Origin: Lobosporangium transversale
Taxonomy: Eukaryota > Mortierellomycota > Mortierellomycetes > Mortierellales > Mortierellaceae
Assembly (NCBI RefSeq): GCF_002105155.1
Contig: NW_019029006.1
Location: forward strand, 372,001-436,000
Direction: 5' to 3'
Length of the DNA stretch: 64,000 bases
The stretch's first letter is position 1; each line of letters begins with the position of its first letter. Position numbers and translations under genes: made by a program. Positions 4,096 through 60,788 of this stretch are shown here, in pieces. Below the pieces are notes generated by a model. That model was not told where the DNA came from and made no database searches. It saw nothing but the letters and a program-made list of their open reading frames with translations.

Positions 4096-6480
4096 TCATG
4101 GCGTCCGGGGTGGAAAAGGTCCTGTCGAAAAGCGAGTAGAGGACACAGGTGGTGGAGAGGGGAACGATCGTAGGAGCGCAGAGTTGGATCGGTCCCCTCC
4201 TTCGCTACCACTATTACTAATGGACTGCAGAGGTGGTGGTGGAGGCAGTGGAAGGAAATCCTTTTCGTTTAAACTCTCTTCAGTACTTGAAGAGGAGGAG
4301 GCCATGGTAACCGCATGTTGGTCCGAGAATGGATTCATGTCCAGGAGAATCTCGTTTGAATCAAACGTCTGGAAGGGATCGTTCGTTGACGTCAATGACG
4401 GTGTGGCACTTGTTCGCCAACTGGGGGTCGTGGCCGTGGTCATGGTTTGGGATCGTCCACCCAGGCCCAAAGCTCCATCATAAGCAACCCCGTCCACAGT
4501 GCTCATGGTCGGGTTTTGGCGGTAGTAATGGCTGTAGTAGGCCATCTGCCGCTCTTCGCTCCGAAGGGACTTGATATTGAGATGATCGAGATATTCCGCA
4601 TTGATTGAGGCCCGGAAGCCGGGATGGCGATGCCAACTTTCATTATCGGTCAAGGAACCTCCTGTCTGGAGACTGGTCAAGCTCATCGACATGGATCGCC
4701 GAAGATATCCGTTGATCGAATTCATCGTATTTCGATAGTGGCGCTTGATAGGGCCTTCTTTGGTCAAGGGTAATGACCCAGTGCCGGAAGAAGCATCAAA
4801 GCTCATGATGTCTGCTTTCCGAGATTGGGAAGAGAAGGAGGGGCTACGGTACTGATTGTTTCCGGATACAGACCCCTCTTCATGATACTGCCTGGATGGA
4901 GGATGCCCCTCAAGGAGGCGCTCAGCCCGAGCAGCCATGGACGCTACCCAGTATTGCCGTACGACCGAAGAAGTTTCGTGGCTTGATCGCATCGAAGACA
5001 TTGTAAAGTCATCATCCGAGTACATGTACGAGTTCGAAGCTGACTTGCGCCAGGATGGACGGCCCAAGTATGCGTCTGCTGGGTAGATAAGGCTGGAATT
5101 CCGATCACGAGAATCACTCTTACTTCCAACCTCACTTGAGTATTTCTCTGAGGAACCCGCCTCAGAGATATCAAGTTGTTGACTTTTACGGTACTTGGCT
5201 ACAGCAGCAGCTACTTCACTATTGTAAGAATCTTGATCGCGTACAGCAGAATGCCTGTCGTCACCTTCGAATTTACCATGCTCATGGTTCTCATCGTCAT
5301 CTTCTTCTTCCCGCATCAGGTAGAAATCACGTTCACTTTGGTCTTTGCCTGAGCCCTTCATACGAAGACCTTGGATCCTTAATCTCTCTTTCATACTGCG
5401 ACCGTTTCCATACCTGCCATTACCATGCCCCCGTCGCCTCTGACGCCGCCGCCTCAAGACTAGCAATGAGATGATGGCGATAAGGGCAGCTGCAGCAGCG
5501 ATGCTTACGAATGTCGCCGTCATGCCCTTGACATTACTGGGACCACCAACGCTGCCACCGTTCACGTCATTCACATTACCGCCGTGGCCGCCTCCTGAAC
5601 CTGTACCGGTAACATCATCGTCTTTACCAGCGCCACTCGGCAGTGGAGGGAGTGGGGGCAGTGGAGTAAAAGGAAATGGGGAAGATGTAGTAGTGGGTGT
5701 TGATGAGGCGCCAGAAGTAGATGTCAAATGTATGGTTGATGTAGGAGAAGGATGGTTAGAAATGGATGGTGGTGTGGCTACTGGAGGTTTTGTCGCGGGC
5801 GGAGGTTGAGTCGGCGGATTGGACGTGACGACATTAGGCTTTGTTGTGGTTGGTTGTGGTTGTGGAGGAGGCTCAACTGCAACTGGATTCATGGTGAAGT
5901 AACATGCGGTATCATCACGGCTTGTGGATCCTTTGTTGACGGCGACTAAACGGATGGCGACGTCCCTAGCATAGGGGCCGCAATCTGGGACAGAGAACTG
6001 ATACTCCCCATTTGCGGCGACAAGCCCTCGGTTTTGAAACAACGTCGCGGCGGTCCTCCACATACCACCCTGGGAGCCTTGGTTATCCATACAGTATAGA
6101 GTAGCCGAAAGAGTGTCATAGTTATCGAGATCGCTATTAGATGCCTGCCAGGCCAAGACAGAGACTTGCCCTGGCTGGACCTTGGTATTGTATGTAGGAT
6201 TTGTGCATGAAACAGCCTCTACAAGGTAATGATTGGATAGATAAGGAGAATGGAGTGAGGCAAGGAAGACAAAAAGTGTGGAGAATGTAGAGAATAAGTG
6301 ACCTAGACGCCGGCGTGAGACATGTCGTGGGCGTGAAAGTGATGACATTGATAATGATGATAATGATGATGAAGACGAAGGTGAGGATGGCGTTGATGAT
6401 GTTTGGGATCGTGAATTGGTCATAAACTGTAGAGAGGTGAGATGGAGGAATAGTGGCACCATTGGGCCATTTGGTGCCAT
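4096..6480 (-). CDS. Single-pass membrane protein with Ser/Pro-rich ectodomain and long cytosolic tail
   Basis: Single-exon frame of 794 residues. An N-terminal hydrophobic stretch (about residues 60-90) can act as signal peptide or anchor. It is followed by a domain of about 110 residues with four Cys and a VQPGQVSVLAW-type strand pattern, resembling the Ser/Thr-rich Kre9/Knh1-like surface domains of fungi. Next come a Pro/Thr/Ser-rich linker, a Gly-rich stalk and one clear membrane helix (FVSIAAAAALIAIISLLVL) with an Arg-rich stop-transfer signal. About 450 polar residues rich in Ser, Asp and Glu follow, presumably cytosolic. The architecture resembles fungal wall-stress sensors or mucin-like receptors, but no specific family is recognised. 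The long N-region before the hydrophobic stretch makes the true start uncertain; Met20 (MTNSRS) is an alternative. Confidence 0.75.
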   Translation of the reverse strand: MAPNGPMVPLFLHLTSLQFMTNSRSQTSSTPSSPSSSSSLSSLSMSSLSRPRHVSRRRLGHLFSTFSTLFVFLASLHSPYLSNHYLVEAVSCTNPTYNTKVQPGQVSVLAWQASNSDLDNYDTLSATLYCMDNQGSQGGMWRTAATLFQNRGLVAANGEYQFSVPDCGPYARDVAIRLVAVNKGSTSRDDTACYFTMNPVAVEPPPQPQPTTTKPNVVTSNPPTQPPPATKPPVATPPSISNHPSPTSTIHLTSTSGASSTPTTTSSPFPFTPLPPLPPLPSGAGKDDDVTGTGSGGGHGGNVNDVNGGSVGGPSNVKGMTATFVSIAAAAALIAIISLLVLRRRRQRRRGHGNGRYGNGRSMKERLRIQGLRMKGSGKDQSERDFYLMREEEDDDENHEHGKFEGDDRHSAVRDQDSYNSEVAAAVAKYRKSQQLDISEAGSSEKYSSEVGSKSDSRDRNSSLIYPADAYLGRPSWRKSASNSYMYSDDDFTMSSMRSSHETSSVVRQYWVASMAARAERLLEGHPPSRQYHEEGSVSGNNQYRSPSFSSQSRKADIMSFDASSGTGSLPLTKEGPIKRHYRNTMNSINGYLRRSMSMSLTSLQTGGSLTDNESWHRHPGFRASINAEYLDHLNIKSLRSEERQMAYYSHYYRQNPTMSTVDGVAYDGALGLGGRSQTMTTATTPSWRTSATPSLTSTNDPFQTFDSNEILLDMNPFSDQHAVTMASSSSSTEESLNEKDFLPLPPPPPLQSISNSGSEGGDRSNSALLRSFPSPPPVSSTRFSTGPFPPRTP

Positions 6481-10890: not shown

Positions 10891-11630
10891 ACTGTATTAT
10901 TTTGCAAGCTATATGTATTAACAAAGATACGTATGAGGAAGGAAGACTTGATGAATTTAAGAAAGAGATTGAGAATGAGAATGAAAGAGGGATGTAGTTA
11001 ATGTTTGATGAACAATGGGTGAAAAAAAGAAGGTATAGGTGTGAAAGGAGCTTGATTTCTTTTAAAAGACTTGATGCAATATGCGAGTGGAATGTCGCAC
11101 CCTGCACTCCGTTATTTCGATCTCCAGTCAAATTTCGCCCTGATAGAATTGCGCCATAGGACAGTCACTAGGGAATAGGACGTATGCCTGAATTAGAAAG
11201 CTCAGTCCATACTCGATTTTATGAATTTATGATCAACTTACACGAGATGATAGATCATCTCACACAAGTAAAATCCACAGCAATGATGAGTTTGTAACAG
11301 TAGCATATATTATATAAATCTTCGGAGGATCGTCCACGTTTTTCAGGATAAGGCTGCATAGAGAAACGCAACAGACTAACAAAAAACGTCGGGTGCTTTC
11401 ATGACCTACAATAATCACCTCAAAACCAGTTCTAATTATATCACCTTGGAGAGTTAAGGAAAACAAAGGCATTGCAGGTTTAAGTAAAAGCTATCAGCTA
11501 TCTGTTGATCTGTACGGTTTTTAAGTTAGTCCAGAAATTCAGGGGCAAAAGATTAGAGAGGATACAGGGGACGAAAATAAACAGAACTTACAAATTTTTT
11601 GTGGGTGTGCCGGTACCCAAATACTTGTGT
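10891..11630. other. Rhodanese promoter side and Fanzor 3' flank
   Basis: Non-coding as far as I can see. The 10891-11100 part is the presumed rhodanese promoter. The 11200-11630 part lies just 3' of the Fanzor reading frame. In other TnpB/Fanzor loci the guide (omega) RNA comes from this kind of flank, so it is the place to look for one. I could not define its border or structure by eye. Open frames here show no family features. Confidence 0.45.
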
Positions 11631-14019
11631 CTAGCGTCGTGCGCGCTTTGCAGCCGGAGCAGGCGACTCTTCCGTGGGCTTGTACTTTGCAGGTCTCTCT
11701 TGCCTCTCAATTTGAGCAAGACCGATTCTTGCGATGTTTTCCGCCCCTACTGCGTCACGGTCGAAGAATGCCTTACATGCCCGGCAATATTTAGAGCGAG
11801 GGTACACCGTCTCTAAAAAGCTATCGCAGAGGGGTCGGGGACAGCGGGCGCTGGTGTAAAATTCGTGCGCTCCTACAGCGAAGTGTCCTCGTGCTTTGAC
11901 CTAAGCGTTTCAAATGGCAGTCGTTTATTAGCAAGGGTTCTATGGCTTTCCAGCTTTTCTTACTTTTTTTAAAAAAAGCCATACCTGTGTGACAAGGTGT
12001 CTCGTTATAGCAGTGTGCTTGCTGGGAACTCCTTTACTACTTTCAAAGGACCCTAGGCCGACGACAAGCACTCCTTTTTCCCCGAGCATCTCCAACACTC
12101 GTTGTACCACGTAGTCGAACGTAGCTCGTTGAGCCTTTCGTAGGTCCCATTTTTTTTTCAGGTACCATCTGGACTCGTAGAACTCTTGAAGCACATCCAA
12201 ATTCTTTGATCCTATCTGTGTCTGGGACTCCTCGTTCATCCATTGAAAGCACTCATTGTACGTATCCCTTCCAAACACAGGGATGGCGCTCTCAACCTCA
12301 ATCATTCCCCTTTCACGCTTCCTTTTGTTCAACAGGTGATTGAAGCGGAGGACGGGGAGGTACAAGAACCTGCTTCTCACCTTTACCGTTTGCCGCAAGT
12401 TAGGGTTGTGAGGATCCAGGGAGGAAAACGTAAGGACGTTAACAATACCAGGATCGCATCCGACGATAGTTGTGGTGTTTGCGAATGGGCACCGCCCTGG
12501 TTTGTTAAATGTGAGCTCAACGTTTTCAAGCAGTTTGGAGCTCCTCTTCCAGTTTATGTTTGCATAGTCTTCATCTGTCAGGTCTTCACCGGCTGCCTTT
12601 GAACACATCGTGTTGAGAAATCCCTGAGAAAGCTCCAGTTCTTGGCTGGGGTCTTCTTCATCTACGTCAGACTGCTGCTGTCTCTTCGTCTGGGTTGTGT
12701 CATAGGCAAGTAGATTCAGAACTAGACCGTTGGTAGAAATCGTTCCCTTGAGTTTGAACCGAGTTAAATCTTTGTCCTGTGACTGCAGGGATACTTTGTC
12801 TCGATATCCAAGAACCATGCGATCGCCTCCAATGTCACAAAAGAGAGCCTGAATCAAAACCCCTTTTGTTCCCTGTACACACTCAAACATTGCAGTCTTG
12901 GAAGGATTGTCGAGAGGCAGAATACGCTCCAGCAGCTGCTTGTATCTTCATTCGCCCAGAGGATGTCAACTAGGGCGTGTTCAGACAGATACACATACCC
13001 GGGTGACCAGGGGGACGTAGGAAAGTCTGAGTATTTTTTCACTTTTTTGTTCTCCCGCAAAAAAAAAACTCAATGTCGCTCATATCTTCGTTTGTTTTCT
13101 CGACATCAAACTAGAAAAAAAAAAAAGAAAAAAAAAAAGAGTCTGAATAAAGAGCATTTGATTGCAGAATATACATGAAAATATCCTACACAAGCTATAC
13201 CATTGCGTTCCTGTAGTGCTGCCTTAATGATGTCTGTACTTGGCCCATTAGTAGCTCTGACGCTCTTGGAAATGAGATCTTTTTGGGATCAAAGCCTTGC
13301 ACGTCCCCCAATGTGATGTCTATTTCCTTTATTGGGGAAAGTTCAGTGGTGGCCTTGAAATGTTCATAAGCGAGGAGGTAATGGGGCGTTTCTACCGCCT
13401 TTCCTTGTTTTTTTGCCCTCGCGTAAGCTGAATTGGGGCCACCTTGACCACTTAAAAGAAGGGTGGCGAGACGGAAGGAATAATCATTGCTATCCAAGAC
13501 CTCGTCCAGTGCCTTTTTCCTCGACTTTGCTGCCCCTGGTAACCGCATGATCCTCTCAATGTCCAAGGCAATCGCCCAGTATGCATAGCGGCGTAGTCGG
13601 TTGAGGACAATAACTGCCCCTCGGATCTGGCTTGCAATACTATCCCTTTCATCTGCGTCCAGTCCGCCTTCCCTTGCCATGGAGGCCTTAAGGGACCCAA
13701 TTGTTAAGGCCTTGATAGGGTGCTTACTGCTGTAGCTGTGATCAACCTTCGTAGCATCCTTCAAGTTCCTAATTGGTGCACCTTCTTTTTTAGCCCTGTG
13801 AGGCTTCTTGTCTTTGTGCTTCCGCTTTTGTTTTTTCTGTTGCTTCTTTTTTGCCTTTTTCCGACGTGGTGGATGCTTAAGGCCAGGCCTATCGTGCTGA
13901 CGGCAGTTACTGATATCAACTGTGCGCCCATTCAATATGCTCGCCTTGTCAGAAAAGATGGGCCGGAACTGGTTCCTATGTGACCCTTTCGCTATATAGA
14001 ATGATGGTGTGTCTCTACA
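11631..14019 (-). pseudogene. Fanzor (TnpB-like RNA-guided nuclease), frameshifted copy
   Basis: Three exon blocks on the minus strand: 13201-14019, 11985-13110 and 11631-11900, with GT/AG introns at 13111-13200 and 11901-11984. The first block opens with a Lys/Arg-rich nuclear-localisation-like region (about 13720-13880) and a helical part. The RuvC-I motif is VGCDPGIVNVLT. The RuvC-II region reads VVGLGSFESSKG, where the usual Glu is absent; a Glu occurs instead in AHEFYTS, just before the zinc knuckle CPRPLC...YCRAC. RuvC-III is FFDRDAVGAENI. The C-terminus, AAKRARRR, is a second nuclear signal. This order (split RuvC, inserted Cys4 finger, displaced Glu) is that of Fanzor proteins. Two frameshifts disrupt exon 2: one at a 10-base T run (coding strand, about 13058-13067) and one near 12947-12952. 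No in-frame ATG precedes the basic region. Catalytic residues otherwise look intact, so decay is recent. Confidence 0.82.
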
Positions 14020-14035
14020 TTATCCAAGAAAGGGA

Positions 14036-14097
14036 CTGACGATTAGTATTGGGGACGTTTGGTTTCAAGGTCAAAACTATAGCTTGAGCTTTCTTAC
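14036..14097 (-). other. Candidate intron joining the FEN1-like and Fanzor frames
   Basis: On the minus strand a GTAAGA donor lies directly after the last Arg codons of the FEN1-like frame. A TACTAAT branch-point match sits a few bases before a CAG acceptor, 62 nt in total. Splicing it out continues the upstream frame as T-P-F-L-G and then a TAA at 14020-14022, which is in the same frame as the Fanzor block. All signals are visible in sequence; use of the intron is inferred. Confidence 0.5.
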
Positions 14098-15035
14098 GTT
14101 CTGCGGCGCTGCGTTCGCCTTTGCTGAGCCATTCTATGGCGAAGATCCTTTCCATTGAGTAGACGCTGCTTGAAGTTATCGAACTCATTGTTTGATGGTA
14201 ACGCTTGGGCCGACGTTTGATGGCCGGAAGTAAAAATGCGGAGAGCTACTCTGAAACGGCCTTCTTCAGAGGCTGCGTTCCTTCCCAACACCTTACTAGC
14301 TTCCCTTAGGTAGTCCCGAAGCATTTTATTGTAGTTCTCGTTCCACGCAACCTTTCGAATTAATCGAAGATTATTAACCGGGCCTAACGTCTCGAGGTTC
14401 CTTGAGTAGTCATTGCCTGCGATGGCACAGAATAACACCGGATGCGCGTGTGATGGCAGTCTTAGTGCTTGGATAACGTTGTCTACATCGTAAACCCCAA
14501 ACTTCCGTCTACGGTGCGGAAGGGGTCGCACTAGGAAGCAGACTCGTTCGTACGCAAAAAAATCAGAGTCTTGGGATATCACGATTCTATCATTCTCCTC
14601 ATTATGGCACCCTATGCATGGGTCCGCTTCATATGCACACAGACAGACATCGAAGACAGAGCTAAGGCCTGTTGCCTGAACCTTGTCCTGGACGCTCAGG
14701 GTGTGGACTTCTCGAAGACCCTTCTGGATGCGCCTCATGACTTGAGGACGAGTCCATACCCCACTCCGAGAATTTCTCTCGAAGGTGCTCATATCGTTCT
14801 CCAAAGCATCCATATTTTTTTCTCTTATGGCTTGCCATTCTGTCCTTGCTTTTTCTTTCTCAGTACAAGGTTCCCCATCAATATGTATAGTCAGATTGTC
14901 CGTTATGAAAAGATCCTTTATTACGAGAGCCAGGGACCTTCCTACATCAATGATGGTTTCGTTTTTCATCTTTGCATGGACGACTCTGCGGAGGATGTCG
15001 TAATAGAACGTACCGAGGAGATCTATCATTTTCTC
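14094..15035 (-). CDS. FEN1/XPG-like flap endonuclease (PIN fold), N-terminus missing
   Basis: Open frame of about 313 residues beginning at a possible acceptor (TTGTCAG) at 15036; the first Met lies at 15029. It matches the XPG/FEN1 nuclease plan. The N-region strand with Asp is MIDLLGTFYYD, and the second acidic site is HIDGEP with following basic residues. The I-region has YEADPCIGC, ISQDSDFFAYE and the helix-hairpin-type GNDYSRNLETLG. All the acidic positions that bind the two metals in FEN1-type enzymes seem present. The usual MGIxGL N-terminal segment is not visible upstream, so the 5' exon is lost or too diverged. The frame ends in a basic tail (TQRRRT) only 74 bases before the Fanzor frame opens. 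Such proteins cut branched DNA; here it may act with the Fanzor as one mobile-element system. Confidence 0.78.
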   Translation of the reverse strand, partial: EKMIDLLGTFYYDILRRVVHAKMKNETIIDVGRSLALVIKDLFITDNLTIHIDGEPCTEKEKARTEWQAIREKNMDALENDMSTFERNSRSGVWTRPQVMRRIQKGLREVHTLSVQDKVQATGLSSVFDVCLCAYEADPCIGCHNEENDRIVISQDSDFFAYERVCFLVRPLPHRRRKFGVYDVDNVIQALRLPSHAHPVLFCAIAGNDYSRNLETLGPVNNLRLIRKVAWNENYNKMLRDYLREASKVLGRNAASEEGRFRVALRIFTSGHQTSAQALPSNNEFDNFKQRLLNGKDLRHRMAQQRRTQRRRT

Positions 15036-15540: not shown

Positions 15541-15612
15541 GGGCCGAACCGGGAATTGAACCCGGGACCTCTCGCACCCTAAGCGAGAATTATACCACTA
15601 AACCATCCGGCC
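15541..15612 (-). tRNA. tRNA-Pro (AGG)
   Basis: A 72-nt cloverleaf on the minus strand. The 7-bp acceptor stem is GGCCGGA pairing with TTCGGCC (one G-U). The D arm contains TGGTTTAGTGGTA. The anticodon stem CTCGC/GCGAG closes the loop TTAGGGT, giving anticodon AGG (Pro). The T arm reads CCCGGGTTCAATTCCCGG. A TTTCTTTTG stretch downstream gives a Pol III stop. No intron. An identical 72-nt copy lies at 34089-34160. Confidence 0.97.
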
Positions 15613-25337: not shown

Positions 25338-28337
25338 ATGGCCAGTTCTGAATGCATTACGAGCCTTCCAAATAATTACGCTACTTCCCTGTCAAGATCA
25401 CTATCCCTTGAGAGCTCGGACCAGGCCACGATTGAAACTCATGAGCCAAAGGAGCCGCGACAACAGGAAATATGTCAAATAGGTAATGACTATATAACTT
25501 TGTGAACCAAAATGTGCATTGTTACACCCTATTTTTGTTTCATTTTCTAACCTTATGCGATCCATCATTTAGCTGATCTTCAGCAGAATCAGAAATACCA
25601 TCCAACATTAAGTGGCTTCACAGAAGAAGAAAAAGAAGGAGTCAACATTGGGCGATGTTCTAGACTGATGAAAAAAACTGAAAGGCATAAGGCGCGCAGG
25701 CCCAACAGCAATCAACACATTCGATATGGTGGCTATAGCCCTGACCTAGATCTAGAGCAATTTAGCTCTTCGAGGACCTCACTGGACCTTCCCCACACTA
25801 CCCCAAGCAACCATCTAAGTAACGATACCTTGCATTCAAGTAAGGAAACTCAGACGACCCCACAGGAGTCGGCAAATGCCGCTACGGCCGCGCCTTTACC
25901 GGGCCAGGCCATATTTAGCCTCCTTTCCTTCAAAAGCAGCTTTCTAAGTCGTCTTTCTGGCTCAGAGGGCACCTCTGGCACTGATGGACCAAAAGCGACC
26001 CATGGCCGTTCAGATCCATCCGCTTTGGTCCACAGCAGCGAACATAGTGAAGGAAATGGACAATATCAGGAATTTCAAAAATATAGGGATTCAACAACTA
26101 TATCCTCACGAAGATCTTTGCCTCTATTACCACTTCAGCCCCATGCGTCCATGGAAAGCTCCTCATTTTATCGCCATGCCAATCGAGAGGAGCGTGTCGA
26201 AAGCTTGACCCGTATTATAACTTCCAATAGGGTTCTGGCATCGCGCTCAGGCGGCATTCTCTCAAATTTACTCAAACTTCAGAGGCTCTCAATGCCGCCA
26301 TCATCACTCTCACAGCATCATCATCACCAGCGCCATCGAAGGCAGTGCCGCCTTCACTGCGCACAACAGGGCCACAACTATAGCCATTACCAGCGACAAA
26401 GAAGAGTGAGTCGAAAGCCATCTGTTGCTTCCAAGCTTATGCCACATATGAGACCTAGTCGGCACATGCTTTCAAGCCCCTGTGTTAGCGCCCTTTCGCT
26501 CCCAAGCCTATTCATGGCAGCCACTTCAGGGGCTGGTATGCCGCCTTCTCCCCATCTCAGCTCCAGGCCCGTCTTTCCTTCCCCATTGGCACTCAATTCA
26601 AAAGCGTCTATATTTCCGAATATACCCGTGGCCAAGAGCAGGCCCTGCATCACAACTTCTGGAGCTGTAGCAGTAGAAATGTTTCCAGATCATGGTTATC
26701 ATCAACTTTATGGGCCTAGTGGTGATGAACGTTCAAATGACCGTTTATTTATGGTCCCAAAAGACATCAGTCTATTGCCCAATATAGTGACTGTTGGTAC
26801 TCCAGCAAAGGAGAATACATCCGTGTATTCAGAGGCCACTCAAGGTCCATTCGTCACCGCGATCCGATCAAGTCAGCAAGCCGAGTTGACGGAAGCAATG
26901 ACAGAGATTCTGTTGCAACAGGACCTATTGATTCGGCTCTGTAAGAGCCTAATCTGGTATGGAGCCCCATCTCATCGAATCGAACTAGCTATGGAGGCCA
27001 TGTGCAGAACCTTTGAGCTCGATGGGTCGTTTGCGTTCTTACCTGGGCTGATGATGATCTCCTTTGGAGATTCAGATACACATCTAATCAAATGCACTCA
27101 AGGATTTGATATGAACCGGTTAGCTAAAGTGCACAAGGCTACCCGGGCATTGATGTACGACGATTTGACACCAGCGGAAGGTTTAACCATACTCAAAGCC
27201 ATCAATAATGAGAAACCCATTTACAACATGTGGGTGACGATAATTTCATTTGCTGGGTCCAGTGGATTTATTGCTCCATTAATCTTCAAGGGTAGTTGGA
27301 TGGACATGTTGGTCAGCATGATCCTAGGCGTGATTGTCGGCTTAATGACCCTTCTAGTCAACCGTTATTCGATCTACTCGAGCGTATTTGAAGTCAGCAT
27401 CAGTGTCTTAATTGCATTCGTGGCTAAGGCTCTAAGAAGCTACGTTTGCTTCACAGGCGTGGTCCTCAGTGCGATTGTTCAGCTTCTGCCAGGCTTATCG
27501 CTCACGACCGCGATCATGGAATTATCCTCCAGATTTATGATTACGGGATCTGCGAGGATGTTTTATAGTCTGATCTACTGTCTCTTTTTGGGATTCGGTC
27601 TCTCGATTGGGTCGAATCTTTGGGATGTTTTCCAAGAGCCTCCGTCTGAGGATTTAAAGATGGGGCATTGTATCCCAGCGAACGAACCCTGGCGATGGAT
27701 CTTGTTCCCACTCATGGCCATTTCATTTAATATCCAGCTCTATGCGAGCCCACGCCAGTGGCCCGCCATGCTCATCTGTAGCTCTGTCGGCTATGCGATT
27801 AGTGAGGTTGGAGGCATACATTGGCCTCGGTCCCTTCATATCGCTGCGGCTATGAGTGCATTTGTGGTGGGCCTTTTGGGTAATATTTATGAGCGGATCA
27901 CTCATGAGCTTGGTAAGCCTCAACCAAATGCATGCACAACTATGTTTGGTCTCTTAGATTCTATTAAACTTATTCCTCTTTCTTTTTTTTTCTTATTCGC
28001 CGCTCATTATATCACCAAGCCTTTGTGCCGATATTGGGTGCCATTCTTTTGATTGTTCCTGGAGGAATGGGCGTCCGCTCAACACTATTGCTCTTGGACG
28101 AGTCAGGGCACGCATCTCAGGGGAGTGCGTTTGCTTTGCAGATGATCATGGTCGCTCTTGGAATCGCCATTGGGCTCTTTGCTGCCACTCTTGTTGTTTA
28201 TCCTCGTAAGTGTAGGGACGAAAAGTTTGGCATATCAGGAGAAATTCACGTCTATTTGTTGGTTTACAATTAGCACTAATTATTATCCTTTTACATATGT
28301 AGTTGGTAAAAAGCGAAACACTCTTTTAACGTTCTAA
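25338..28337 (+). CDS. Prm10/ThrE-like membrane transporter (DUF1212 plus ThrE_2)
   Basis: Four exons, 25338-25482, 25573-27912, 28020-28205 and 28303-28337, give 901 residues. The first 400 or so residues are Ser/His/Arg-rich and unstructured. The DUF1212 core starts at LLQQDLLIRLCKSLIWYGA, with PSHRIE and the FLPGLMMISFGD motif. About ten membrane helices follow across the paired ThrE domains, including the second-domain motifs VPGGMGVRS and the end YPLGKKR. Bacterial ThrE exports threonine and serine. Fungal members such as yeast Prm10 are pheromone-regulated membrane proteins of unknown substrate. Every splice junction restores the family motif order, which supports the model strongly. 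The start at 25338 is the first ATG of the frame. Confidence 0.9.
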
Positions 28338-34088: not shown

Positions 34089-34160
34089 GGGCCGAACCGG
34101 GAATTGAACCCGGGACCTCTCGCACCCTAAGCGAGAATTATACCACTAAACCATCCGGCC
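34089..34160 (-). tRNA. tRNA-Pro (AGG), second identical copy
   Basis: Identical over all 72 nt to the gene at 15541-15612: same acceptor stem, anticodon loop TTAGGGT and T arm. The trailer also has TTTCTTTTG. The 5' flank on the minus strand is similar but diverged for about 60-80 bases between the copies, so the duplicated unit was longer than the tRNA. Confidence 0.97.
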
Positions 34161-57170: not shown

Positions 57171-60100
57171 TTAATGGCGATGATGGCGATGTCCTGATCC
57201 TGGCTCCTCCTTCGCAACACGCACATTAGGCTCGAATTTCTCTCCAAGCTTTGAGGCCTTATCCTCTACTTGCTCTTTCGTCTCCTTGAGCGTATCACGT
57301 ACTTTGTCTGTAGCAAATTGGATATTGCCTCGAACTGAATCATCATTCTGATTCTTGAGTTTAGCACCTGCACCAGCAACAGTCTCGGAGGCTTCCTGGA
57401 GCTTCTTCCTAGCTTCCTTCTCGGCTTCCAATGCCAACTGGCGTGTCTTCTCTGCATACTCGCGTGACTTAGTATCAGCCTGGAGCCAAATGTCATTCAC
57501 CTGCATCAGCAACTCCTGCGACTTGGCACGAGTATCCGAACCTGCGGTCTCAAGCTTACTCTTGGCAAGTTCCTCAAGCTCAGCAAGTTTAGCTGTCACT
57601 GTCTTTTCATCCTTTCGGCTGCTCGTGTCCTTAAATACACTCAACTCAGAAGCCGCTGTCTCCTTCGAGGCTGCAAGGCGATCGGTCAAAAAGTTCTTGA
57701 GACCAGTCAAGTAGACCTCGACATTGTTAGAAAGCACCTGGACTTTTGACTTGGCCGTTTGTTGATCCTTCTCGGATCTCTGAGTAATCTGCTTGACGTA
57801 TTCCTGAGACTTCTCGCTCAACTTGGAGAGTCGACCTTCAAGGTCACCATCTTGGTTGCGCCAATCACGAACATAGGACTCGAAGCTCTCGTAAGCCTCG
57901 CGGTTGGCTTTTTCGAGGTCTTTTGCAGACTTCTTGGCCCCAGTAAGATGTTCATCGATAGCGCCTTGTAACTTGGCCCAAAGGCTCTTAGATTCAGTAT
58001 CCTCGTATTCGTGGAAGCGACCAAAGATCGATTCAATGCTAGTTAGCATAGCAGTCAAAGACGTCTTAGTGGCTTCTTGGGCATCGTGAGCCTTGTTCTT
58101 GATTGTTTCGCCAGCACCCTTAGCTTGATCTACTACATAGTCTTTGGCCTTGTTAGCATTCTCAATTTGAATGTTGAGCTGCTCTTTGCCGTCCATCACA
58201 ATTTGGTCTGTTGATCCTTTCAGTCTCTCTGTCTGCTCCTTTGCAAGGTTTTGAGCGTAATGGATGTTCTCTTGCGCAGACTTCTTCATACCCTCGGCCT
58301 GTTCGCTAACATGCTCGCTTGCAGCCTTTGCATTTCCAACAACCTTGGCCTTAATATTATCAGCCTGGTGTCCAGCGGTATCGTATGCTTTGTGAGCATG
58401 GTATCCAGCGGCATCGTATGCTTTCTGAGCCTGGTGTCCGGCGGTATCATATGCTTTCTGGGCTTGATGCGAGGCGTCGTTCGCAGCCTTCTTTGCATCC
58501 TTCTCCTTCTCCCAGACAGCTTGCTTCAACGCATCAGCTTGTTCCTTAGCAGTTCGCTCCAGCTCTTCCTTTTTCTGACCAGCAACCTTGGCGGCATGTT
58601 CAGTGTGCTTGTCAACAGTGTCCTTGGCGTCGTGCGACGCCCCAATGACGCTATCAACAATGTTGGCGCCCTTCTCCTGGGCCCACTCAACCTGCTCATG
58701 AGCAGTATGGCGGATATTCTCTGCCCGACGTGCGATAGCCTCCTGAGCCTCATGTGCCTTCTCGATCACAACCTTCTTGATGTGGTCCGACATCTTGCCA
58801 GCTTCGTGGACCTTTTCATCCTTGACCTTCTTAAGGTGTTCGGATTCTTCGGTGACGGTCTTTTGAGCATCTTGGCCCTTCTTGGCAACATTGGCTTTCA
58901 CATCATCCACAAACTGCTCTGCCAGCTTCTGAGCATTCTCTTTCTTCTCATTAGCAGCAGCCTTGATCTCTTCTGCGTTTGGGATAGCCTCTTTCTTTTC
59001 AGCAGCCTTAGAAGCAACTCCACCAGCCATACCAGCTACTGCTGCCTTAATTGAGTTCGAATAGTCGCTCGCCATCTTTTGAGCTCCCGCGACAGTATCA
59101 TGGAAAGCTCTGTTGATGTCCTCAGTGCTGGGGATAGCCAACTTTTGTTCTTGGACCTTCTGTTCCGCTGCTTTCTTTGCCTCTTGCGACTTACCGGCCA
59201 CAGATTCTTTGACTGCCTCTGCATACTCGCTGGCTGCCTTTTGAGCGCCTGCAGCCTTCTCGTAGACTGTATCCTTGACATGCTCAGCCTTAGGAATAGC
59301 GGTCGCCGACTGCTTCTCTGTAGCTTCCTTGGCCTCATGTGACTTGCCGATCACTGCAGCCTTAATTGTATCAGCGTATCCCAAAAGCTTATCCTTGAGA
59401 CCCTCAGCCTGAGCATTCGTCTCAGCTTTGGCATCCTTAGCAGCTTCTTGGGCCTTGAAAGCGGTTTGGCCTGCCTTCTTTTTAGCTTGATCAGCAGCTT
59501 CATAGGCCTTGGCCTTGGCCTGACCTGCCTTCTTTTCAGCCTCCTTGGCAGCTTCATGGACCTTGGCCTTGGCTTGGTCTGCCTTCTTGGAGGCGCGATT
59601 GGCAGCGCGACCGAGCTTAGATTTGTTCTGCTTGCTGAAATGGGTACCCCAGATCTCATCCGTCTGCCTTGCAAAGCTCTCCTTCATGTTCTCCGCAGTA
59701 TCCCGGACCACTGCGAACGTCTGTTGAGCATAGGGATTGATATGCCCCATGTAGAGTACAGTAGCGCTGTCATAGACGTGCCTGAAATGGGGCGAGATCT
59801 TATTGATCGTGGGCTGAACATGAAGCGAGTGCAGATGCCAGGCGTGGTCACTGGCATCTTTGGAGGCCTTTTTGGCGTAATTAAGATGACCATGAGCTTG
59901 ATTACGATATCCATGGAAAGTCTTTTGAGCATTCGAGATATGATCCTTGACCTTGTCGGTATAAATTGCATTGATAACTCTATGGACATGGGGGTGAGCA
60001 TACTGGTTGTAGGAGATCTTGGCCTTCTCGGATGCAGACTTGATAGTGGGATGGGCCATCTCGGTGTAGTACTTCTGGCCTTGTTTATACAATGGGCGAC

Positions 60101-60788
60101 CATACCGATCCACATAGGGTTCCGCATAGGCGCGATAGGTTTGGTCGACAGAGTGGTAGACGGGCTCTGAATAAGGGCGAAGCCAGTCATGAAGCTTTGT
60201 TGCACCTTCACAAATGGCATTCGAATCCTTCGATGATTCTTTAGGACAGACGAAGAAGAGCGTGTAGCCCAGATAGAGTATGAAGATGCGGGTAATGAAA
60301 CGACGGGTGGAGTAGCCCCTGGCGCCCACAGACATTGGAACGGCAGCTCGAATGAGATCATGGCGATCTGAAATCGTTGGAGGCGGATGAGTTGCAGGAG
60401 CAGCAAGAGCAGGCTCTTTCTTTAAAGTCACACTCTTGTTGTTAGAGCGAGCGCGTGTCACACCAGGTGGGGGTGCCGCGCTGGGTGTGATCAATTCAGC
60501 CTTCTCATGACGTGGAGAAGCTGATCCTCGGTTCTGAGCCAGCATTGGTGCCGGAGGCAGTGAGGGGCTAGATGTAGGCGACTATTTTACACAAATTGAT
60601 GTCATCGTGAGTTAGATAAAATTCATATTAATCAATGAGTATACAAGATGATGGCTCGTGTGTTTTCTCAATTTTTCACAAATTCTCACGGAGCCACAAA
60701 ACACAATGAATTATTCTGTTGCACATGTTTTTATTTAGCTTACACTGTTGGTTCTTGAGCCTGCTCGTCTTTGTTTTCCTGACGACAT
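57171..60788 (-). CDS. Large membrane-anchored protein with LEA/apolipoprotein-like amphipathic helices
   Basis: Two exons, 60744-60788 and 57171-60581, give 1151 residues. The first 105 are polar and Pro-rich. One membrane helix follows at about residues 110-127 (FITRIFILYLGYTLFFVC). Then come repeats rich in Tyr/His/Pro (residues about 150-300, for example YAEPYVDRYGRPLY). A very long Ala/Lys/Glu region to the end has about 11-residue periodicity (for example KAKAYEAADQAKKKAGQ), like group-3 LEA proteins and apolipoproteins. Such helices can lie on lipid surfaces or form rods. There are few Cys and no catalytic motif. No named family is recognised. Possible roles are a membrane or lipid-droplet coat, a stress protectant or a tether. 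The His-rich end is GHRHHRH. The gene lies head-to-head with cyclin L. Confidence 0.82.

Follow-up and report, generated by a model that had tools for sequence, protein, structure and literature searches.

Fanzor nucleases carry a DPG motif, an alternative glutamate and a Cys4 TNB finger as their fingerprints (available text of PMC10711439), and the accessible portion of PMC3627910 describes Fanzor elements that lack a transposase but whose ends resemble those of confirmed transposons. How TnpB and Fanzor nucleases help eukaryotic transposons is an open question, according to the part of PMC10432273 available to us; among engineered systems, a Cas9-EXO1 'exonuclease editor' is reported in the accessible sections of PMC11107001 to raise homology-directed repair and lower non-homologous end joining. 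Here we describe a transposon remnant from the fungus Lobosporangium transversale, in a window (the whole stretch of DNA analysed, 64,000 nucleotides) that covers positions 372,001-436,000 of contig C49 (NW_019029006.1) in a searched genome of 42.7 Mb and 127 contigs. At a probability of roughly 0.55, we read the remnant as one decayed member of a multicopy fungal transposon whose single gene encodes, from the N-terminus on, a 5' nuclease of the XPG/FEN1/EXO1 type, a basic linker and a Fanzor, a RuvC nuclease guided by omegaRNA and bearing a TNB zinc finger, such that cutting and end processing would be combined in one protein.

The FEN1-like frame of the window has 119 matches in the L. transversale genome, among them 14 near-complete copies of the window's own family (family A, the window copy included, 86-100% identity) and 15 of a second one (family B, 29-30% identity), and Fanzor pieces come after the FEN1-like matches in the same order. 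We counted places after merging the nested or overlapping fragments of one place, and left out 29 family-A-like Fanzor fragments, mostly of ~49-59% identity and with stops, that sit in 5' regions of family B or within shorter derivatives, on the opposite strand. A Fanzor piece then begins at most 1.5 kb downstream on the same strand at 65 of the 77 FEN1-like places, the control counts at the same distance being 0 of 77 for the upstream side of that strand and 1 of 77 for the opposite strand; restoring the omitted fragments, a piece common to the 5' region of family B, brings the opposite-strand count to 15 of 77 and leaves the downstream (65) and upstream (0) counts unchanged. From the contrast between downstream and upstream we reject a reading of the two as unrelated neighbours. 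Subtracting the query copy and two places on contig C50 that duplicate places on C48 gives 62 of 74. Among the 12 places with no Fanzor within 1.5 kb, a TNB finger lies 2.0-2.9 kb downstream at four and a Fanzor 3.4 kb downstream at one; at the other seven there is none out to 5 kb. The weaker count is that from the Fanzor side, where a FEN1-like place lies within 1.5 kb upstream at 65 of 112 loci; many of the Fanzor loci without one are truncated, are shorter derivatives, or belong to families whose FEN1 part may be too divergent for the query. As a separate observation, C48:481371-509038 and C50:28862-56549 hold matching FEN1/Fanzor relics with equal scores in opposite orientation, representing either a duplicated segment or redundant assembly.

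The pairing extends to two other genera of Mortierellaceae. A Benniella protein (P0002, 1160 aa; 34% identity over 94%) has both parts, without the zinc finger, and in Mortierella alpina one annotated protein (P0003, 1404 aa) contains both parts and the model of another (P0004, 1053 aa) begins inside the FEN1 part. A model from L. transversale itself (P0001), five pieces of which match C1:66-2896 at 93-100% identity, begins just upstream of the junction at intron 1 (described below) and crosses it. This range of three genera is a lower bound (the last protein search gave 2 proteins among 151 candidates); a profile search with the profile A1 found only P0002, low-complexity words having probably swamped it, and one search for a viral relative of P0004 found none at that sensitivity. 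The sequence-only reading of the window had proposed that the two may form a single element, and this is supported by the genomic counts and by the other genera, in which the pairing is conserved and not peculiar to the window copy.

That earlier reading had also named five XPG/FEN1 motifs in one frame, and all of them (MIDLLG, HIDGEP, YEAD, SQDSD and GNDYS) are present in the frame at window positions 14094-15029 on the minus strand. In a search of solved structures this frame alone matches yeast RAD2 (E 7e-4), and a four-row family profile, A6, one row of which is a blend of two copies, matches archaeal FEN-1 (1a76, 7e-8), RAD2 (2e-5), ERCC5 (2e-4) and EXO1 (2e-3). The Pfam family XPG_I is weak in three of the four rows (best 0.016) and below cut-off, and XPG_N is not listed. 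The acidic motifs D..IHIDG..E-A-D..DSD..NDY occur in the window frame, in family B and in P0002, and one family A copy, L018, has DSN in place of DSD. The segment GNDYS..LGP aligns to the corresponding RAD2 stretch, which we take to be the helix-two-turn-helix DNA-binding region of XPG nucleases. A host FEN1 gene lying here by chance was considered and rejected: PF00752 gives five matches, which we read as four host loci, none beside a Fanzor.

The assignment of the downstream frames to Fanzor likewise stood up. The RuvC motifs and Cys4 finger lie in window frames 12947-11943 and 11900-11634 (minus strand), the RuvC-I DPG motif reading CDPG in family A, GIDPG in family B and P0002, and GMDPG in P0004. 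The alternative glutamate sits six residues before the zinc finger (HEFYTSARCP in the window; HEYYTSAKCP in family B, P0003 and P0004), the P0002 model ending upstream of both glutamate and finger. In a genome scan the window TNB finger passes the PF07282 cut-off with 28.9 bits (C49:383733-383897, window 11733-11897), as do spliced family B, P0003 and P0004, P0001 falling below it. In one predicted structure, of low confidence, the N-terminal end matches EXO1/FEN1 and the remainder three solved Fanzors, the Fanzor fold of P0004 spanning residues ~325-1040. Among solved structures the fused profile A3 reaches EXO1/RAD2 at 0.006-0.015 and SpuFz at 0.31 only, and there is no real match with the RuvC part or with P0004 alone; the matches in PHROGs were weak ones to transposases, at the Fanzor end, and two families of unknown function. 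Both identities, XPG/FEN1-type and Fanzor, hold above chance.

The family A remnant occupies window positions 11499..15025 on the minus strand, its 3' end intact and ending ..CCGTACAGATCAACAGATA, and its gene reads on that strand as four exons. Exon 1 (14098..15029) encodes the XPG/FEN1-like nuclease domain, its first 4 bases being flanking DNA and the N-terminal MG.. start lost; intron 1 (14015..14097; 83 nt, GTAAG..TACTAAT..TGTAG) is in phase 2; and exon 2 (13201..14014) encodes a Lys/Arg-rich linker and the Fanzor N-terminal part, with 107 residues free of an in-frame ATG after a conserved FY..G start. Intron 2 (13111..13200; 90 nt, GTATAG..TTTTCTAG) precedes exon 3 (11985..13110), with the Fanzor WED, RuvC-I (CDPG) and RuvC-II parts, and intron 3 (11901..11984; 84 nt, GTATGG..CTAAT..CTTAG) precedes exon 4 (11631..11900), with the alternative glutamate, the Cys4 TNB finger and RuvC-III (FDRDAVGAENIA). 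The 3' non-coding end (11499..11630) contains two blocks nearly invariant among 14 copies and is a candidate omegaRNA region.

The FEN1 frame stops where it does because the splice donor of intron 1 makes the stop (..AGAAC|GTAAGA, read as ACG TAA). A gap of 74 bases had been noted between a FEN1-like and a Fanzor frame; that distance (14093-14020) is exact from the stop at 14094 to the next open frame at 14019-13198, and the RuvC motifs and Cys4 finger assigned to the latter sit further on, at 12947-11634. Excision of intron 1, with its TACTAAT and terminal TGTAG, links the FEN1 and Fanzor frames in phase 2, and family B has an intron in the same place and the same phase (..CCCAG|GTAAG .. CTAATTAG|ATTC). 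With three introns spliced, the family B copy L029 is open for more than 1,150 residues, from MGIKGLYSYL to past the TNB finger. The Fanzor N-terminal part of families A and B, P0001, P0003 and P0004 is free of Met for 107-151 residues past the conserved start, and therefore needs an upstream exon. The flap nuclease had been read from the window as a separate partner of the Fanzor; the phase-matched intron and the Met-free start point instead to one spliced polypeptide, and we regard it as very probable that the four exons are one gene, predicted to encode a single protein of FEN1-like nuclease and Fanzor. Without splicing, translation would end at the donor site and yield only the 5' nuclease. 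We also observed one copy (L017, C41:532499-533863) with a natural deletion of intron 1, in which FEN1 and Fanzor share one 512-codon open frame.

As for the elements, 11 of 20 family A copies have both ends by pattern, at lengths of 4.3-5.8 kb, starting with TATCC.TT and finishing with ..ACAGATCAACAGATA, an end sequence that occurs 38 times in the genome with at most two mismatches. No duplication longer than TA is visible in family A, and in the two copies whose 5' region was read for frames none exceeds 115 residues ahead of the gene. Eight family B element copies of 5.6-6.7 kb were paired by eye through their 16-bp ends (TATAGCCCGTTCCATT / TATAGTCCGTCCCATT). Their 5' end agrees at 38 of 42 bases, and their 3' end at 13 of the first 16, with the terminal inverted repeat (TIR) of a ~7-kb IS630/Tc1-mariner-type transposon, L036 (C37:189780-196960), whose own TIR measures at least 60 bp, being perfect over the 60 of 60 bases compared, and which encodes a protein of 621 aa with a match to NF033545, the model for IS630 transposases (E 6.9e-10; 38.9 bits, below the curated cut-off of 100). 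The two other frames scanned in L036 have no convincing family match, and no XPG-like match occurs in any of the three. No transposase was seen in the family B copies read, and the family is probably mobilised in trans by the IS630/Tc1-mariner-type transposase of a transposon sharing its terminal repeat. The two family B copies with both ends read start and finish in TA, which may be a target-site duplication or belong to the element ends. A Helitron is not supported, no CTRR 3' end being present.

Two further observations concern the structure of individual copies. Three family B elements (L029, L030 and L031) carry ~0.6 kb of family A-like Fanzor DNA, reversed, near the 5' end at 85-86% identity, which lies ~0.4-1 kb ahead of the FEN1 exon and on the other strand; by genome search most other family B copies have such a reversed piece nearby too. 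Two family A copies, L010 and L018, have a 3' flank in common, some 2 kb long and 97.8% identical across the joint alignment, and unrelated 5' flanks despite complete 5' ends, which could reflect one-ended copying, transduction or later rearrangement.

Selection was assessed among family A copies as the ratio of nonsynonymous to synonymous changes per site (N/S), using changes common to at least four copies and comparing the coding frame with the other frames. The RuvC frame is under clear purifying selection, at 0.16 vs 1.59 in both other frames. All-pairs ratios, with those for the other frames in brackets, were 0.39 (0.95, 1.01) for RuvC, 0.65 (0.88, 0.73) for FEN1, 0.68 (0.55, 0.73) for the Fanzor N-part and 0.56 (0.64, 0.83) for TNB, the same picture as the common changes for the first three. 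For the FEN1 part, a stronger argument than these family A figures is the persistence of the acidic motifs at ~30-35% identity in families A and B, in P0002 and, within the part that it contains, in P0004.

Several results weigh against a functional fused protein carried by a mobile element. Elsewhere in the gene the N/S values are less telling than for RuvC: 0.47 vs 0.95 and 0.79 for the FEN1 frame, moderate and only suggestive; 0.70 vs 0.53 and 0.55 for the Fanzor N-part, showing no purifying selection; and 0.21 vs 0.23 in one other frame for the TNB part, with five changes only and thus uninformative. The splicing pattern does not carry through all copies: in family B, besides L029, one of the three copies runs into a stop at residue 766 and another is not joinable; joining by pattern worked for eight family A copies, of which L018 alone stays open past 900 codons, ending in a frame break, and the remaining seven stop early, with 12 of the 20 not joinable; and of four decayed relatives only L033 keeps both donor and acceptor of intron 1. 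In P0002, Met residues near the start of the Fanzor part cause the no-Met argument to fail, and P0003 is without the E-A-D motif and carries a glutamate in place of the RuvC-I aspartate (GIEPG). The fused proteins are all predictions whose splicing in the cell we infer, and the mean predicted local distance difference test scores of both predicted structures are low (52 and 58). The family A 3' end folds no better than shuffles (that of family B has z -1.7), the family A TIR is alike at 10 of the first 16 bases and not above shuffles by local score, and a transposase was not identified for that family. Finally, at least nine shorter family B derivatives with no FEN1 match still multiplied; these retain the TNB end and a 5' fragment (C59:421-3214, C53:482024-484817, C87:229190-231979, C85:108972-112049, C24:582088-585566, C117:744223-747711, C33:633577-636332, C36:5827-8582 and C102:114212-116799), and perhaps used the fused protein in trans.

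Under the mechanism that we propose for the fused protein, RNA from the 3' end of the element would direct the Fanzor part to cut the matching site where the element is absent or has been excised; the 5' nuclease fused to it would strip 5' flaps or resect 5' ends at the cut; and repair would be steered to homologous recombination with the element-bearing copy, by which the element would be restored or spread. We consider this plausible because of the parallel with the engineered Cas9-EXO1 fusion. That the 5' nuclease part acts on DNA ends, which the sequence-only reading had suggested as the trimming or resolving of ends made by the Fanzor, is a serious possibility at somewhat under even odds. 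More tentatively, the protein may be a natural RNA-guided 'cut-and-resect' enzyme that commits the host to homologous repair, by which the element is copied back or to new places, with splicing of intron 1 as the switch that sets whether the 5' nuclease is made free or fused.

The FEN1-like protein and the Fanzor could instead be two proteins from neighbouring genes of one element, merged by gene predictors, since each part has its own open frame in genomic DNA with a stop between and Met residues occur close to where the Fanzor part of P0002 begins; against this stand the Met-free Fanzor N-terminus in five sequences, the phase-matched intron 1 conserved across both families, and the annotated proteins of three genera that are fused or span the junction, which make it highly improbable. 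Were the domain a degenerate passenger with no catalysis of its own, contributing DNA binding or stability at the most, the weak family A selection signal, the loss of E-A-D in P0003 and the shorter derivatives without a FEN1 part would all be accommodated; the retention of the acidic motifs across such divergent sequences argues otherwise, and we rate this very unlikely.

If the fused nuclease is active, it may serve something other than the processing of breaks made by the Fanzor. It might be an accessory enzyme of transposition that repairs gaps, flaps or ends where the element inserts anew, like the nuclease of AcademX, a nuclease-encoding transposon lineage (consulted part of PMC10045372). 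The TIR that family B shares with an IS630-type transposon fits such a role, which is nonetheless unlikely, given that the Fanzor comes after the nuclease at 65 of 77 places, that the scanned frames of the transposase-bearing L036 hold no XPG-like match and that derivatives without the nuclease multiplied too. The wider PIN-like superfamily includes RNA nucleases, and the XPG/PIN-like domain might accordingly act on RNA or RNA-DNA hybrids, in maturing omegaRNA from the element mRNA or in clearing R-loops, the invariant blocks of the 3' non-coding end being a candidate guide RNA. The best matches (FEN-1, RAD2, ERCC5 and EXO1) are DNA enzymes, and the segment GNDYS..LGP aligns to what we presume to be a DNA-binding region; an RNA role is thus quite unlikely.

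The window copy itself is a dead relic, 5'-truncated and frame-broken, that points to the system and is no working example of it. Alignment to 18 of the 19 other fetched family A copies begins at 15025, the ATG at 15029 belonging to the flank; the MGLKSFFK.. start and the element 5' end are gone, and with them ~35 first codons and the 5' non-coding region, which measures 1.4-2.2 kb in other copies. The frame of exon 3 is broken twice by small length differences between 13110 and 12945, relative to five other copies. Elsewhere in the window are two tRNA-Pro(AGG) genes (15541-15612 and 34089-34160, minus strand), of which the first lies upstream of the element's truncated end by ~0.5 kb, and three large host frames: 4096-6480 (minus strand, 794 aa) with no Pfam match, 25668-28052 (plus strand, 794 aa) with a ThrE exporter domain, and 57171-60545 (minus strand, 1124 aa), in which an apolipoprotein-like stretch scores under the curated cut-off.

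That three genera of Mortierellaceae have a Fanzor equipped with a predicted 5' flap/exonuclease suggests that control over break repair is among the tasks of such a protein. The fusion gives a direct handle on the matter, in that the two active sites are separately mutable; as a natural counterpart of engineered nuclease-exonuclease fusions, it is possibly also a template for an editor favouring homology-directed repair. The predicted protein is apparently a variant of Fanzor with a fused 5' nuclease that we did not find described: a literature search, with most subscription papers and preprints outside its reach, found no Fanzor-XPG fusion, leaving absence in print unproven.

Like Fanzor1 (SpuFz1, PpFz1 and GtFz1), the protein has the RuvC DPG motif, the alternative glutamate before the zinc finger, the TNB Cys4 finger and the fold, and it sits in DNA transposons, some of which for Fanzor1 too have no transposase of their own (accessible portion of PMC3627910). 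Unlike Fanzor1, it has an N-terminal 5' nuclease, of which the available text of PMC3627910, PMC10432273, PMC10711439 and PMC11423790 makes no mention; PpFz1 has a feature of its own, a RuvC insertion (FRI) domain that binds cyclophilin (available part of PMC11423790). With XPG, FEN1, EXO1 and RAD2 it shares the MG N-terminus (where the 5' end of the copy is intact), the acidic motifs and profile and fold matches, whereas it falls below the Pfam XPG_I cut-off, is encoded by a transposon and is apparently fused to an RNA-guided nuclease; the host's XPG genes (PF00752) occupy four separate loci away from Fanzors. The elements resemble IS630/Tc1-mariner transposons in the family B 5' end and in starting and finishing in TA, and differ in the transposase not seen in the family B copies read and in the unclear TIR of family A. 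Compared with Cas9-EXO1, the fusion is natural rather than man-made, is built of unrelated nucleases and has a predicted function; like it, a programmable nuclease would be joined to a 5' nuclease, an arrangement that there favours homology-directed repair (accessible sections of PMC11107001).

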